Shown here one piece after another: positions 1,262-5,953 of a stretch of 5,953 bases of DNA; positions within the stretch are counted from its first letter, which is position 1, and each line of letters begins with the position of its first letter. Below the pieces are notes generated by a model, which searched no databases, was not told the origin of the DNA, and was given only the letters and a program-made list of their open reading frames with translations. Origin of the DNA: a bacterium (GTDB taxonomy: Bacteria; Verrucomicrobiota; Verrucomicrobiae; JAJYAR01); NCBI GenBank assembly GCA_021779435.1, contig JAJYAR010000192.1, positions 1 through 5,953 of the forward strand, written 5' to 3'. The position numbers and the translations under genes were made by a program.

Positions 1262-1933
1262 ATGGACAACATCATTCCGGACGTCGCGCTGATCGACAAC
1301 AGCGACGAACGCGCACCGCTCGTGCTCGTGCTCGACTGCTCGGGCAGCATGGCCGAAGACGACAAGATCCACCTGCTCAACGATGGTCTCAAGACTCTCG
1401 AGGCCGAACTCAAGAAGGATCCGATCGCCGCGCGCTGCGGGCGCGTGCTCGTCATCTCCTTCGGCGGCGACAACAACATCGAAATCATGGGCGACTGGAC
1501 CGACGCCATGGACTTCACGCCCCCCGAACTCCATGCCGGCGGCATGACCCCCCTGGGCGCCGCCATGCGCTGCGCCCTCGACGAAATCGAATCCCAGAAA
1601 ACCCAGATGCGCAGCGCCGGCGTCTCCTACAAGCGCCCCATCGTCATGCTCCTCACCGACGGCGATCCCACCGACGACTGGCAGCAGGTCGCCGCCGAAT
1701 GCAAAAACGCCGAGGCCGCCCACAAGGTCAACATCATGCCCATCGGCGTCGGCACCGCCAACCGCGAAATCCTCGCCGAGTTCAGCAACAAGGGCGCACT
1801 CAACCTCAACGGCCTGCGCTTCCGCGAACTCTTCATCTGGCTCAGCCGCAGCATCCAGGCCGTCTCCCGCGCCGCCTCCGGCGGCACCGTCCAGCTCAAC
1901 CCCGTCGACAGCTGGGCCCAGATGCAGGCCTGA
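1262..1933 (+). CDS. terY: TerY/YegL-type von Willebrand A domain protein
   Basis: A 223-residue, single-domain VWA protein of the TerY type, the length expected for that family. The metal-ion-dependent adhesion site is complete: D25-C-S27-G-S29, T96 in GGMTPLGA, and D133 in LLTDGDPTDDW, the last being a hallmark of TerY/YegL proteins. It has no signal peptide or membrane segment, so it should be cytoplasmic. Family members are thought to act as metal-dependent protein-binding adaptors. The ATG at 1262 is preferred over an upstream in-frame TTG (1205) because AGAGGGA at 1250-1256 gives a well-placed ribosome-binding site and the family's N-terminus begins about there. It is the first gene of an apparent operon with a PP2C phosphatase and a kinase, the same trio as yegL, yegK and yegI of E. 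coli. The name terY denotes family membership; no terB, terC, terD or terE gene is present in this window. Confidence 0.92.
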   Translation: MDNIIPDVALIDNSDERAPLVLVLDCSGSMAEDDKIHLLNDGLKTLEAELKKDPIAARCGRVLVISFGGDNNIEIMGDWTDAMDFTPPELHAGGMTPLGAAMRCALDEIESQKTQMRSAGVSYKRPIVMLLTDGDPTDDWQQVAAECKNAEAAHKVNIMPIGVGTANREILAEFSNKGALNLNGLRFRELFIWLSRSIQAVSRAASGGTVQLNPVDSWAQMQA

Positions 1934-1950
1934 TCGCAGCATCCCCGAAT

Positions 1951-1983
1951 GCGGGGCGCAGCCCGTCGACGACGGCGCCCCGC
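1951..1983 (+). other. Stem-loop in the VWA-PP2C gap
   Basis: GCGGGGCGC (1951-1959) and GCGCCCCGC (1975-1983) are a perfect 9-bp inverted repeat. The 15-base loop between them itself contains CCGTC/GACGG (1963-1967 and 1971-1975), which competes for one base of the outer stem. A smaller alternative, CCCCG/CGGGG (1944-1948 and 1953-1957), overlaps on the left. It fills most of the 78-base gap and ends 28 bases before the phosphatase ATG. There is no following U-run, so it is not a standard terminator. It may set the ratio of VWA to phosphatase/kinase by RNA processing, stability or partial termination, which is inference. Confidence 0.4.
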
Positions 1984-2011
1984 GCGACAACCACCGGAAA
2001 TCCGTACTCCC

Positions 2012-2767
2012 ATGCAGTGGAAAGTCTTTCTCGCCTCCGCCACCGGCGCATATCATTTGACCAATGACCAACCCTGCCAGGACGCGGGACATTTTGCCGT
2101 CAACGGCAACGTGCTGGTCGCCGTGGTCTGCGACGGCGCCGGATCGGCCGCGGAGGGTCACGCCGGGTCACGCTTCTTCGCCGAGCGGATCACGCAGCTG
2201 GCATCTGCCGCATTCGGAGCAGAGGACTTCACGGCGCGTTCCGACGCCGAATGGCACGAAGCCGTTGCCGGCATCGTCGAACAGGCCCGCTCGGAGCTGA
2301 CCGAAACCGCCGCCGCCCAGGAACGCAGCCTGCGCGACTTCGCATCGACCCTGGTCGGCTGCGTCACGTCGCGCGATGGAGGATGCTTCTTCCATATCGG
2401 CGACGGCTTTGCGATCCACCAACGCAATACCGGCGAATCGGTGCTCTCACGCCCCGAAAACGGCGAATATGCGGACGAGACCTACTTCGTCACCGACGAA
2501 TCCTGGAAAGAACATCTGCGCGTCACGCCGCTCACCGGGATCGAGCGCGGCTGCCTCATCGGCTTGATGAGCGACGGCACGTCGCCATTCGCGGTCGACG
2601 GCCCGAAGACCGGTTTCTTCCGCCCGTTCATCGACCCGGTCGTGAAATTCCTGCGCGAGGCGACCGAGCAGAACGGCACGCAGGCACTGCAGAACGTGCT
2701 GGCGGACGAGAAGACGCACCGGATCACCGCGGACGACAAGACGCTGCTGCTCGCGCTCGCGCATTGA
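2012..2767 (+). CDS. PP2C-type protein serine/threonine phosphatase (YegK/PphC-like)
   Basis: A 251-residue stand-alone PP2C-family phosphatase expected to remove phosphate from Ser/Thr residues using two metal ions. The metal-binding motifs appear in order: QD (Q23-D24) after the N-terminal strand, DGAGS (D41-G42), HIGDG (D131-G132), MSDGT (D188-G189) and DDKT (D241-D242). The catalytic set therefore looks intact. It has no signal peptide or membrane segment, so it should be cytoplasmic. The ATG at 2012 is chosen because MQWKVFLASATG aligns with the family's first strand. An in-frame ATG at 1949 would add an arginine/proline-rich leader inside the intergenic stem-loop and is unlikely. The ribosome-binding site is weak (GGAA at 1996-1999). 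It lies between the VWA and kinase genes and presumably reverses the kinase's action. E. coli YegK (PphC), from the matching trio, has been reported to be an active phosphatase. Confidence 0.9.
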   Translation: MQWKVFLASATGAYHLTNDQPCQDAGHFAVNGNVLVAVVCDGAGSAAEGHAGSRFFAERITQLASAAFGAEDFTARSDAEWHEAVAGIVEQARSELTETAAAQERSLRDFASTLVGCVTSRDGGCFFHIGDGFAIHQRNTGESVLSRPENGEYADETYFVTDESWKEHLRVTPLTGIERGCLIGLMSDGTSPFAVDGPKTGFFRPFIDPVVKFLREATEQNGTQALQNVLADEKTHRITADDKTLLLALAH

Positions 2768-2804
2768 ACCCGGCCGCATTCCATCGCCTGCGCCCGACGT
2801 CCCC

Positions 2805-4094
2805 GTGAACGCTCCCGCCAGTCCTTCGATCCAGCACGTACGCATCGTCTGGTCGGACGGGCGGTCCGAGCAGGTCCGCCTCGTCTCCATCGGCAAATCG
2901 GGCGGCGCCGGCGAAGTATTCACGATCGACAACAAACTCGAGTACGTCGCCAAGGTCTATCACGCCAACATCCTGCAGGCGCACCGCGCGGAGTATGAGC
3001 AGAAAATCCGCTGGATGATCCGCAATCCGCCCGAACTGCCGCCGGTGCCCACCGGGCAGCGCGGCATCGTCCAGCTCGCCTGGCCGGTCGCCATGGTGAT
3101 GCAGGGTGGGCGCTTCACCGGCTTCGTGATGGAGAAGATCGACTTCCAGCGCACGATGGAGCTCGACTACCTGCTCACACGCAGCCAGGCGGCCAAGGAG
3201 GGGTTCGACACCGACTTCGGCAAGCTCGTCACGATCTGCCACAACCTCGCCTCGCTGCTGCACTGCCTGCACAGCAAGAAGATCGCCGTCGTCGACCTCA
3301 AGCCCATCAACCTGAAGGTGTACAAGAAGGAACTCTACGTCTCGATCCTCGACTGCGACGGGTTCCACATCCACGCAGATGACTTCGTCTCGGCGGCCCC
3401 CCAGGTGACGCCGGAGTACCTTGCGCCGGAGTTCCACGGCCGCTCGGTCAGCAACCCCGAGAACCAGGACCGCTTCGCGCTCGCGACCATCATCTTCCGC
3501 CTGCTCAACTACGGCATCCATCCGTATGCCGGCATCGCGGCGAACCGGCATCAACTCTATCCGTCCGAACTCGCAGGGCGCATCGAGAAGGGCCTGTATC
3601 CCTACGGGCGCAGCGGCAACCGCAGCGTCCGCGCCACGCCGGCCAGCGTCCACGAGTGTTTTCCGGACGTGCTGCGCGAAACCTTCGACCGCGCCTTCGC
3701 ATCGGGAACCTACCGTGCCAGCGCCCAGGAATGGACGGCGATCCTCAATGGCTTCGCCAGCAAGAGTACCGGTGCGATGTCGCTGTGCGAGCAGGGGCAC
3801 GTGCGTTTCACCGGCAAGAACTGCCCGACCTGCCTGCGTGACGCGATCCTGAAGGGGCACGCCGAGCGCCACAAACGTTTCCTGACCCGGGTGCAGACCT
3901 CGCCTACCCGGGCGGCGCGCTACGTCCGCAAGACGATCCGCGGCACCCAGACCTCTCCCTTCCAGGCGGCCCTGGCGCAGGGGCAGGTGCGCGGCCTGCG
4001 CCAGGCACCGCAGACGCTGCCGGTGCGCAACATGATCAGCATCGAGATCCTGTGGATCATGGGCCTGGCCATTTCGTACTGGTGGCTCAAATGA
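2805..4094 (+). CDS. Atypical Ser/Thr protein kinase with zinc-ribbon-like motif and C-terminal membrane segment (YegI-like)
   Basis: A 429-residue protein-kinase-fold protein. Visible in order: a glycine-rich loop (SIGKSGGAGEVF, 29-39), the ATP lysine K50 in YVAKVY, the catalytic loop VVDLKPINL (162-170; D164, K166, N169), the metal aspartate D183 in ILDCDGF where canonical kinases have DFG, APE at 207-209, and D222 in the helix after it. HRD is thus VVD and DFG is DCD, as I recall for the YegI/TerY-associated branch, while the catalytic residues remain. A C-x3-H-x7-C-x2-C pattern (C328, H332, C340, C343) looks like a small zinc ribbon. A basic linker with two QTSP motifs (364-367, 382-385) leads to a hydrophobic segment at about 410-428, probably a tail anchor that leaves the kinase in the cytoplasm. 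The start is GTG at 2805, with no clear Shine-Dalgarno 37 bases after the phosphatase stop; no early in-frame ATG exists. The stop overlaps the next gene's ATG. Confidence 0.9.
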   Translation: MNAPASPSIQHVRIVWSDGRSEQVRLVSIGKSGGAGEVFTIDNKLEYVAKVYHANILQAHRAEYEQKIRWMIRNPPELPPVPTGQRGIVQLAWPVAMVMQGGRFTGFVMEKIDFQRTMELDYLLTRSQAAKEGFDTDFGKLVTICHNLASLLHCLHSKKIAVVDLKPINLKVYKKELYVSILDCDGFHIHADDFVSAAPQVTPEYLAPEFHGRSVSNPENQDRFALATIIFRLLNYGIHPYAGIAANRHQLYPSELAGRIEKGLYPYGRSGNRSVRATPASVHECFPDVLRETFDRAFASGTYRASAQEWTAILNGFASKSTGAMSLCEQGHVRFTGKNCPTCLRDAILKGHAERHKRFLTRVQTSPTRAARYVRKTIRGTQTSPFQAALAQGQVRGLRQAPQTLPVRNMISIEILWIMGLAISYWWLK

Positions 4095-4642
4095 CACAAG
4101 CCGTTGCGATCGCAATCTTCGCCGCGGCGGCATTGGCCATCGCATGGCGGTGGCGTCCGCGCACGCTGCGCGTCGAGCGCGGGGTCTGGGCGCTGCTGGC
4201 CGCATATCTGCTCATGGGGCTGTGGGCGCTGTGGTTCGGCTATTTCGCGCCGGGCACCGAGCCGCCGCGCCTCCAGCACTGGCAGCCGACCATCTTCTAC
4301 TGGACCCTGTGCGCAATCGGGATGCTGTCGCCGCGGCTGGGCGGCGGGTTCCCGGTCAAGGCGATCACCGGCACCTTCTTCATGCTCACCCAGCCCGAAT
4401 GGCGCTGGGCCAACCGCGCCCTCGTCGCGGTGACGGCGGCGCTGGGGACGATGAACCTGCTCGTGATCTATCACCGGATCGATTTCGACTGGGAGAGCTT
4501 CAAGTTCGGCTACATGGCCAATCTCGCGGCGGTGTTCATCCTGCGCTTCGTGTTCGTCTGGTTCGAGATCTTCATGCGGATCGTCACGGCGATCGGGAAC
4601 CGCTCGAAAGCCAGGGCGCGCGCGCGCGCGCCGACGCCGTAG
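4091..4642 (+). CDS. YciB/IspZ-like multi-pass inner membrane protein, fourth gene of the triad operon
   Basis: A 183-residue hydrophobic protein with about five membrane segments (near residues 2-19, 32-52, 66-80, 109-127 and 142-166) and a short arginine-rich tail. The second half resembles YciB/IspZ, the inner-membrane septation family: QPTIFYW (65-71), W104-x-W-x-x-N108, G119-x-x-N122 and W134-x-x-F137-K138 correspond to YciB's KPTVLYW, VWRRLN, G-x-x-N and WVNFK. The N-terminal third looks divergent. YciB proteins have been linked to cell-envelope and division maintenance, but the molecular role is unclear, so no reaction can be given. The ATG at 4091 overlaps the kinase TGA (ATGA, 4091-4094), implying translational coupling. 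An in-frame GTG at 4052 lies inside the kinase's membrane-segment codons and is less likely. The 3' end carries a (GC)8 tract encoding alternating Arg-Ala. It could be a paralogue recruited to the kinase system, not the housekeeping YciB. Confidence 0.7.
   Translation: MTQAVAIAIFAAAALAIAWRWRPRTLRVERGVWALLAAYLLMGLWALWFGYFAPGTEPPRLQHWQPTIFYWTLCAIGMLSPRLGGGFPVKAITGTFFMLTQPEWRWANRALVAVTAALGTMNLLVIYHRIDFDWESFKFGYMANLAAVFILRFVFVWFEIFMRIVTAIGNRSKARARARAPTP
4615..4632. repeat. (GC)8 tract, an 18-nt perfect palindrome inside the YciB-like gene
   Basis: GGCGCGCGCGCGCGCGCC is an uninterrupted alternating GC run flanked by one G and one C, making a perfect palindrome. It encodes the Arg-Ala repeat near the C-terminus (about residues 174-180). 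Alternating GC can adopt Z-DNA and is prone to slippage. A two-base change would alter the last few residues and could shift the stop past 4642 into the convergent gene's end. Confidence 0.75.
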
Positions 4643-4665
4643 CGGGCATTTGAAGGGCTACGGCG
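4635..4665. terminator. Inverted repeat spanning the convergent gene ends
   Basis: CGCCGTAGC (4635-4643) and GCTACGGCG (4657-4665) are a perfect 9-bp inverted repeat with a 13-base loop. Each arm contains the stop codon of one of the two convergent genes: TAG at 4640-4642 on plus, and CTA at 4658-4660 read as TAG on minus. Position and symmetry fit a bidirectional transcript-end structure. Neither side has a U-run, so it is not a canonical intrinsic terminator; it may instead stabilise 3' ends or act with Rho. Confidence 0.45.
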
Positions 4666-5953
4666 CGGAGCGATTGGCCGCGCCGCGAAAATGCCGGTCC
4701 ACGTAGTCGCGCATCGCGAGTCCCAGGATCCAGTCGTTGATCACGAGGTACAGGTGACGCGGACGGCGCCAGGGAATGGAACGCAGGAAATGCAGCCACC
4801 GGACGGGACCGCCCGGGACGATGCCGCGCAGCAGGAACCGCAGCACGATCTGCGCCTGCTGTCGCGCCGGATAGGTCGTGTCGCGGACCGGATCTCCCAT
4901 GTAGCGCAGCTTGTTGCGGATCCGTTTCGCGATCGCGCCGTCGGCGGTCAGGGTCCGATAGAGCTGTTCGTACCCTTCGACGAGCTGCTCGTAGGTCATT
5001 CGCAAAGGCACGATGTTCGTCGCCGGCCGCGTATTGTCGGCACCGCCGTCCCCCGTCCGCAGCCGCCCTGCGGCCGCGAGCCGCTCGTGGAGCGGGGTCT
5101 TCGGCAGGGCGGTGAGCAGCCCCACCATGGCGAGCTGGATCCCGGACGCGAGCAGGAACCGCAGTTGCGACCCGAACGCCGCCGGGGTGTCGGTGTCGAA
5201 CCCGATGATCAGGCCGGCGAGGACGTCGATGCCGTACTCGTAGATTCTCCGGATCGAAACAAGCGCGTCCTCCGCCATGTTCTGGGTCTTCTTCGCGAGC
5301 TTCAGCGCTTCGGGGTCCGGCGACTCCACGCCGATGAACACCCAGGTGAATCCCGCCTCGCGGCACAGCGCAAGCAGTTCGGGCTGTCGCGCGAGGTTGA
5401 TCGACACTTCGGTGCCGAACCGGAACGGATTGCCGTGACGGCGCTGATACCCGACGAGAAACGCCAGCAGTGCCCGCGCGACCGCGGGGTTGCCGATGAG
5501 ATTGTCGTCGACGAAAAAAACGCTGCGCACACCCTGCACGCGCAGCGCATCGAGTTCGCGCTCGACCTGCGCAAGCGACTTGTGCCGCGGCTTGCGACCG
5601 AACATCACGATGATGTCGCAGAACTCGCAGCGATACGGGCACCCTCGCGAGAACTGCATCGTCGCGGTCGTGTAGCGGGAGAGCCGCAGCAGATCGAAGC
5701 GCGGCGTCGGCGACCACGCGAGGTCGACCACCTCCGTTTCCCGATACAACGCGGCGGGCGGCGCGCCGCGCCGTTCATAATCGGCGCAGAACTGCGGCCA
5801 GATCCGCTCGGACTCCCCCGAAACCACGGTATCGGCGATCCCCGCATAGCGTTCGGGGCACAGGGACGCGAAGCTGCCGCCGGCGACGGTGTGATAGCCC
5901 TCGCTTCGATAGTGCCGGAGCAGCGCACACTGGCGCTCGAACTGCACGCCCAT
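4658..5953 (-). CDS. B12-binding radical SAM protein, DUF4070-like; 5' end beyond the window
   Basis: 431 residues are visible. The radical SAM cluster motif is C105-x3-C109-x2-C112 in RGCPYRCEFCDIIVMFGR, which would bind a 4Fe-4S cluster that cleaves S-adenosylmethionine. The TIM-barrel follows, with VFFVDDNLIGN (145-155), a strand ending FIGVESPD (206-213) and VLAGLIIGFD (244-253). The residues before the cluster (about 1-55, with VAGG at 23-26) look like the last part of a cobalamin-binding domain. The C-terminal region (about 310-420) resembles DUF4070. Family members carry about 70-80 more residues at the front, so the Met codon at the very edge (5953-5951) is probably internal and the gene is cut by the window. 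Relatives include cobalamin-dependent methylases such as HpnP, but the substrate cannot be named. It is convergent with the kinase operon, 15 bases apart, and probably functionally separate. Confidence 0.88.
   Translation of the reverse strand: MGVQFERQCALLRHYRSEGYHTVAGGSFASLCPERYAGIADTVVSGESERIWPQFCADYERRGAPPAALYRETEVVDLAWSPTPRFDLLRLSRYTTATMQFSRGCPYRCEFCDIIVMFGRKPRHKSLAQVERELDALRVQGVRSVFFVDDNLIGNPAVARALLAFLVGYQRRHGNPFRFGTEVSINLARQPELLALCREAGFTWVFIGVESPDPEALKLAKKTQNMAEDALVSIRRIYEYGIDVLAGLIIGFDTDTPAAFGSQLRFLLASGIQLAMVGLLTALPKTPLHERLAAAGRLRTGDGGADNTRPATNIVPLRMTYEQLVEGYEQLYRTLTADGAIAKRIRNKLRYMGDPVRDTTYPARQQAQIVLRFLLRGIVPGGPVRWLHFLRSIPWRRPRHLYLVINDWILGLAMRDYVDRHFRGAANRSAP

Follow-up and report, generated by a model that had tools for sequence, protein, structure and literature searches.

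What is a gene for a YciB-like membrane protein doing directly behind a phosphorylation triad? The question is raised by contig JAJYAR010000192.1 of a Verrucomicrobiota genome, a stretch of 5,953 nucleotides (nt) that we analysed over its whole length and call the window. Genes for a VWA protein, a PP2C-type phosphatase and a serine/threonine kinase are followed there by a fourth open reading frame, ORF4. A sequence-only reading of the DNA had singled out these four genes, and all of them are open reading frames at 1262-4642 in the arrangement it described. We find that the VWA, PP2C, kinase and PF04279 (YciB family) proteins are a conserved four-gene cassette. The arrangement is not chance, because every one of 16 distinct loci has the fourth gene.

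The check that the sequence-only reading had proposed, listing the neighbours of kinase homologues, carries this conclusion. A YciB-like ORF4 directly follows the kinase in every distinct locus that continues past the kinase, some of these loci being close relatives. The 16 cassettes (window, G001, L038, L039, L040, L041, L042, L043, L044, L046, L047, L048, L049, L050, L091 and L093) were counted after removal of the same genome under two handles; L049 begins inside the PP2C gene, and L038 and L044 inside the VWA gene. The ATGA overlap of kinase stop and ORF4 start, correctly noted before at 4091-4094 of the window, is shared by 9 of the 16 (window, G001, L038, L039, L040, L043, L044, L048 and L050), and of the other 7, L091 has a 1-nt overlap and the rest short gaps. 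A contig search with an alignment of 22 kinases, keyed on two exact peptides and reaching only kinases close to that of the window, returned 13 loci. An ORF4 homologue lies directly downstream in 12 of them; the contig of the thirteenth (L045) ends inside the kinase, and this locus was left out of the adjacency count.

The two genes are also inherited together. Across 399 genomes of the order, a kinase scoring >600 bits occurs in 8, and an ORF4 profile match of >200 bits occurs in the same 8 only, adjoining the kinase by coordinates in all of them; the best other YciB reached 97.6 bits. A weak kinase relative in G691 (138 bits) has no ORF4. For the 16 cassettes, 8 of 13 splits are common to the kinase and ORF4 trees (random mean 0.23), and the mirror-tree correlation is r = 0.94, a value reached in none of 2000 permutations. 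Ratios of nonsynonymous to synonymous substitution rates (dN/dS) of 0.03-0.10 for the kinase (9 of 11 pairs scorable) and 0.08-0.17 for ORF4 (8 of 11) indicate purifying selection on both. The protein database holds 408 kinase relatives and about a dozen ORF4s, a shortfall that is not readable as absence; scoring in the ORF4 search was confined to the 7998 candidates with most words in common, and it missed P0004, a member of its own alignment.

ORF4 is not the only yciB of its genome, nor is the cassette confined to close relatives of this strain, the two outcomes that had been named beforehand as damaging to the idea. The window's genome has a separate housekeeping yciB on another contig (C44; 187.9 bits). 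Among 16 further entries, representing 14 distinct genomes, a housekeeping yciB of at least 170 bits was found in 11 distinct genomes. No yciB match of at least 170 bits was found in G005, G339 and G341, all three of which are metagenome-assembled genomes (MAGs), G005 being 89% complete. With the window's own genome included, 14 of 17 kinase-bearing genomes have a housekeeping-type yciB; in G363 and G406 it shows up as a second match to the ORF4 profile, housekeeping-like and scoring 97 and 92 bits. Of the 7 genomes of the window's genus, 4 carry the cassette, its own among them, and a match of this strength was found in none of 30 further genomes of the family. According to database labels it is also present in a Gallionella MAG, Ferrovaceae MAGs, other Betaproteobacteria MAGs and a Gammaproteobacteria MAG, and one database ORF4 comes from Ferrovum sp. 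PN-J185. A search around the genome of the Gammaproteobacteria MAG (L050) found the cassette in that genome only (1 of 246); the 20 other genomes it listed share no member with the order searched above, so L050 may, but need not, belong to another order. In addition, the class and phylum samples (2 of 274 and 2 of 398) each yielded the own genome plus one distant match. This patchy distribution suggests horizontal spread. Within one family, G363 and G406 of genus g280 carry the cassette, and five genomes of genus g317 (G517 included) have housekeeping yciB only.

Judged from their sequences, the three genes ahead of ORF4 form a TerY-P triad, because VWA, PP2C and a kinase with a zinc-ribbon motif fit the published description, in which a TerY-like VWA protein and a PP2C phosphatase accompany a kinase that carries a zinc ribbon (Anantharaman et al., 2012, as cited in PMC11090510). 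The Pfam matches are VWA with 42 bits (cut-off 23.8), PP2C_2 with 146.4 bits (cut-off 24) and Pkinase with 29.3 bits, slightly below its cut-off of 31.7. A VWA protein bearing a metal ion-dependent adhesion site (MIDAS) motif is thus encoded next to the PP2C and the kinase, and the zinc-ribbon motif is C-terminal to the kinase domain, its residues C328, H332, C340 and C343 being invariant in 22 aligned kinases. The VWA gene is present in all 15 examined loci of the kinase clade that reach it, 2 of these being cut by contig ends. The translations contain DCSGS and TDGD (VWA), DGAGSA, GDG, SDG and DDKT (PP2C), and VAK, VDLKPxN and LDCDG (kinase). We take these motifs to be active-site residues; the active sites of all three proteins accordingly look intact, as had been proposed. 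No Ter, restriction or DNA-processing genes were found in the window flanks or among the 10 flanking genes of five loci; the Ter and restriction association of TerY-P is one from the literature, here not treated as strictly defining.

ORF4 matches PF04279 (IspA/YciB) with 34.1 bits, above the cut-off of 28.7, and falls far under the NCBIfam equivalog cut-offs (ispZ, 15.2 versus 165.2 bits; septation protein A, 35.6 versus 180 bits). The suggestion that the fourth gene is a YciB/IspZ relative therefore stands, though outside the ispZ equivalog. Its structure model has a predicted local distance difference test score (pLDDT) of 89.1 and helices at residues 3-21, 30-52, 59-82, 101-127 and 134-179, taken as transmembrane helices. 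These helices and the hydrophobic end of the kinase support the membrane location that had been assigned to both proteins. The profile alignment starts at YciB residue 26, and ORF4 thus lacks YciB helix 1, whose motif (MKxLxDLxPV...) none of the 16 cassette ORF4s shows at its N-terminus. The core is shared: in ORF4s and housekeeping YciBs alike, P66, Y70, N122, W134 and K138 are invariant and W64 and W104 almost invariant. Position 152 sets the two apart: all 22 ORF4s have Arg there, whereas each of the 55 scored housekeeping YciBs has Ala, Gly, Leu, Val, Ile or Pro. The housekeeping set comprised 61 matches that reduce to 56 distinct proteins, L115 and L068 being excluded for lack of the helix-1 motif, and one of the 56 was left out of the Arg152 count (no anchor motif). 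The last residue is Pro (window 4637-4639) in 19 of 22 ORF4s versus 1 of 56 housekeeping YciBs, and the tail preceding it is variable. In a tree with 57 housekeeping YciBs the ORF4s form one group apart (support 100/100), with some long branches and a root that is not fixed; ORF4 is therefore not a recent duplicate in the window's genus. A fold search of ORF4 in the PDB returned nothing at E ≤0.001, and a comparison by sequence likewise gave no relative of solved structure.

The hydrophobic tail that closes the kinase, EILWIMGLAISYWWLK, forms a helix at residues 407-428 in the structure model; the kinase model is poor (pLDDT 68) and was used for this helix alone. The majority form of the tail is RN-x-I-S-I-E-I-L-W-x-x-G-L-x-I-T-Y-W-W-L-K. 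All of the best 120 of 408 database relatives have its glutamate (Glu414) at a distance of 16 residues from the end, and it is present in 13 of 13 cassette tails compared. Neither the end-anchored EILW tail nor ORF4 was found with ten distant kinases (L037, L051-L056, L094, L127, which is E. coli YegI, and L129). Of these, L037, L053, L094 and L129 were counted by the kinase alone and not by the other triad genes, and the absence of ORF4 at L094 is weak, since only ~350 nt are available past the kinase. The short end-anchored tail together with Arg152 is, on these alignments, what sets the cassette apart. One of the distant kinases, L055 (MT836238.1), is on an 11.7 kb human faecal contig labelled 'UNVERIFIED: Bacteriophage sp.' that may be a bacterial contig; no ORF4 accompanies its VWA, PP2C and kinase genes, and the kinase has three hydrophobic segments.

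How might the fourth protein work with the other three? Our reading, to which we give a probability only slightly better than even (about 0.53), is that the cassette is a TerY-P switch with a YciB-derived input subunit that docks the kinase tail in the inner membrane; this subunit is predicted to relay the state of the envelope to the kinase. The tail helix, running in-to-out, would pack on the ORF4 bundle at the place vacated by YciB helix 1. By our own reasoning from the positive-inside rule, ORF4 should run from N-out to C-in and the kinase tail in-to-out. Glu414 and Arg152 would then lie at similar depth, because they are 15 and 14 residues from the expected periplasmic edge (counted from the kinase's last residue and from Lys138, respectively), and could form a buried charge pair. 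ORF4 would read the state of the membrane, such as fluidity or acid or metal stress, and pass it to the kinase. YciB together with DcrB is reported to act in the maintenance of membrane fluidity (PMC9487459), and acid or metal stress is a reasonable candidate input because acid mine drainage water is the source from which Ferrovum strain PN-J185 was enriched (PMC4886054). The kinase would phosphorylate the VWA protein or other targets, the VWA protein would read the phosphate marks, and the PP2C phosphatase would remove them, resetting the switch. A bolder form of the idea makes kinase and ORF4 one split membrane machine, with the tail helix in the helix-1 slot and a buried Glu414-Arg152 pair locking the kinase onto the YciB core. 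This would be the first kinase switch with a repurposed YciB as its transmembrane sensor, and we hold that version only tentatively, as an unlikely one.

The kinase tail was compared with YciB helix 1 in a register test on 119 kinases. Only the register that runs the kinase end straight into ORF4 scores (mean +3.7), the other 11 registers giving -15 or lower, and 0.15% of shuffles equal the best. Several observations weigh against an input subunit docked in this way. At their best register, 7 of 167 E. coli transmembrane segments match helix 1 equally well, and adding the tail brings no gain in hhalign (163.2 to 162.4). We therefore dropped the proposal that the tail is a true homologue of YciB helix 1, given the absence of gain and the equal E. 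coli controls, and kept the positional idea. Four Ferrovum-like ORF4s (L043, L044, P0129 and P0131) have a shortened first helix. The argument for contact between Glu414 and Arg152 is one of depth alone, and neither residue ever varies, so covariation cannot probe the pair. Beyond the kinase domain, nine of the ten distant kinases, all without ORF4, have hydrophobic segments with a longer C-terminus behind them, and two (E. coli YegI and L055) have a membrane Glu. Membrane location, and perhaps the Glu too, may therefore be older than the partnership with ORF4; Glu as a mark of the cassette kinase clade alone was dropped, as YegI and L055 also have it in a hydrophobic segment. The loci are few, some are close relatives, and downstream genes are seen for only a minority of the 408 kinase relatives. 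Finally, assigning ORF4 to input rather than output is a choice.

We favour input over output. If ORF4 were the output, the kinase would phosphorylate or gate the YciB-like protein and so alter membrane fluidity or permeability under stress. The reported tie of YciB and DcrB to membrane fluidity (PMC9487459), the position of ORF4 as last gene of the unit and its basic C-terminal tail, with Thr as penultimate residue in 12 of 22, all agree with this. At 12 of 22, however, the Thr is not a conserved feature, unlike the final Pro (19 of 22), and the invariant residue specific to ORF4, Arg152, sits in a helix and not in a phosphorylatable loop; we regard an output role as improbable, at around one chance in five. 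A little less probable still is that ORF4 merely anchors or stabilises the kinase tail and takes no part in signalling. The strict pairing of the EILW tail with ORF4 and the translational overlap in 9 of 16 cassettes are what an anchor would predict, but ORF4s and housekeeping YciBs have more core residues in common than an anchor should need, and distant kinases have membrane segments without any ORF4.

The sequence-only reading had also entertained a defence module, and this part is not supported. Among the 10 flanking genes of five loci, PADLOC matched only a single SPASM radical-SAM protein, which scored 65.6 bits against viperin models; we read this as generic radical-SAM similarity. The flanking genes encode ordinary functions (chemotaxis receptors, SPASM radical SAM, MiaB-like, alcohol dehydrogenase, MipA and a histidine-phosphatase family protein), along with one integrase-core gene (L040) and two genes without a family. 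A defence island was rejected on this basis. The four cassette proteins themselves gave weak generic PADLOC matches of 23.6 bits at most. No relatives were found in viral contigs and no ORF4 on plasmids, and spread by phage or plasmid was likewise rejected; kinase matches on 36 plasmids and 2 'phage' records are all <60% identical. An anti-phage or anti-toxin module with ORF4 as a decoy or altered YciB would recall the TerY-P triads of CoCoNuT restriction loci and the TerY-P-like modules with a kinase-OB fusion reported as anti-phage (PMC11090510), as well as YciB as a receptor for some contact-dependent inhibition (CDI) ionophore toxins in E. coli (PMC11630599), but with no defence gene beyond the generic viperin-model matches, no viral-contig relatives and no plasmid ORF4 it is very improbable.

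The features of the window are collected in Table 1. The VWA and PP2C genes are separated by 78 nt and the PP2C and kinase genes by 37 nt, and the kinase and ORF4 overlap. The assignment to one operon rests on this spacing, because a promoter and terminator scan of the window found none. The convergent radical-SAM gene ends 15 nt past ORF4, and a homologue is also found downstream of the cassette in L038.

Table 1. Features of the window, with positions counted from its first nucleotide.
Feature	Position	Strand	Basis or remark
LysR-type regulator	90-1043	minus	Upstream flank of the four plus-strand genes
VWA protein (TerY/YegL-like), 223 amino acids	1262-1933	+	MIDAS-type DCSGS motif, residues 25-29
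PP2C-type phosphatase, 251 amino acids, PF13672	2012-2767	+	Pfam
Ser/Thr kinase, 429 amino acids, GTG start	2805-4094	+	Open reading frame, Pfam
Zinc-ribbon-like C-x3-H-x7-C-x2-C, kinase residues 328-343	3786-3833	+	Motif
Predicted C-terminal transmembrane tail of kinase, residues 408-429	4026-4091	+	Modelled helix 407-428; Glu414 codon 4044-4046
ATGA, ORF4 start and kinase stop	4091-4094	+	Reading frames
ORF4, YciB-like membrane protein, 183 amino acids	4091-4642	+	PF04279, structure model
Arg152 codon, last helix of ORF4	4544-4546	+	Alignment
Radical-SAM gene, convergent	4658-5953	minus	Sub-threshold B12-binding match, DUF4070

The triad type is already known, and the constant YciB-family fourth member is the new part. 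As far as we know, no input has been established and no clear mechanism described for either TerY-P triads or YciB. If the kinase and ORF4 work together in the membrane, the switch would become a sensor of the cell envelope, and the cassette would show that TerY-P modules are able to act in envelope signalling, beyond defence loci. The clade-specific buried Arg and the invariant Glu would offer direct mutants for asking what a TerY-P kinase senses and what the YciB fold does. None of the literature matches listed joins YciB with a TerY-P triad, in a search that did not cover Anantharaman et al. (2012), where a mention is possible.

Four known systems invite comparison. With the TerY-P triad the cassette shares the same three proteins in the same order and a C-x3-H-x7-C-x2-C motif after the kinase domain. 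It differs in that its kinase is short (429 amino acids) and ends in one conserved, predicted transmembrane helix, in the constant YciB-family fourth gene, and in the lack of restriction or Ter genes among the flanking genes scanned at cassette loci. The yegL/yegK/yegI-like character that the triad had been given holds for E. coli yegL-yegK(pphC)-yegI: besides the Pfam matches and zinc-ribbon motif, the VWA, PP2C and kinase proteins are 41, 30 and 25% identical over aligned parts (the kinase over the kinase region), and a hydrophobic segment of YegI likewise contains a Glu. YegI has been reported as a membrane-bound kinase that PphC dephosphorylates (PMC13232886). However, its hydrophobic segments are followed by a long C-terminal region, the EILW tail is absent, and no yciB-like gene adjoins its gene. 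The STK_OB and PD-T4-6 defence kinases in PADLOC share weak generic kinase similarity with the cassette (at most 23.6 bits), which differs in having no visible defence neighbourhood and a kinase with a zinc-ribbon motif and membrane tail. YciB/IspZ (septation protein A, PF04279) belongs to the same family as ORF4, with the WKPT..YW, G..N and W..FK positions conserved. In contrast to the six helices read in E. coli YciB, ORF4 has five in its model, without helix 1, and with an invariant Arg in the last helix and a C-terminal Pro; it scores below the ispZ equivalog cut-off and forms a clade of its own.

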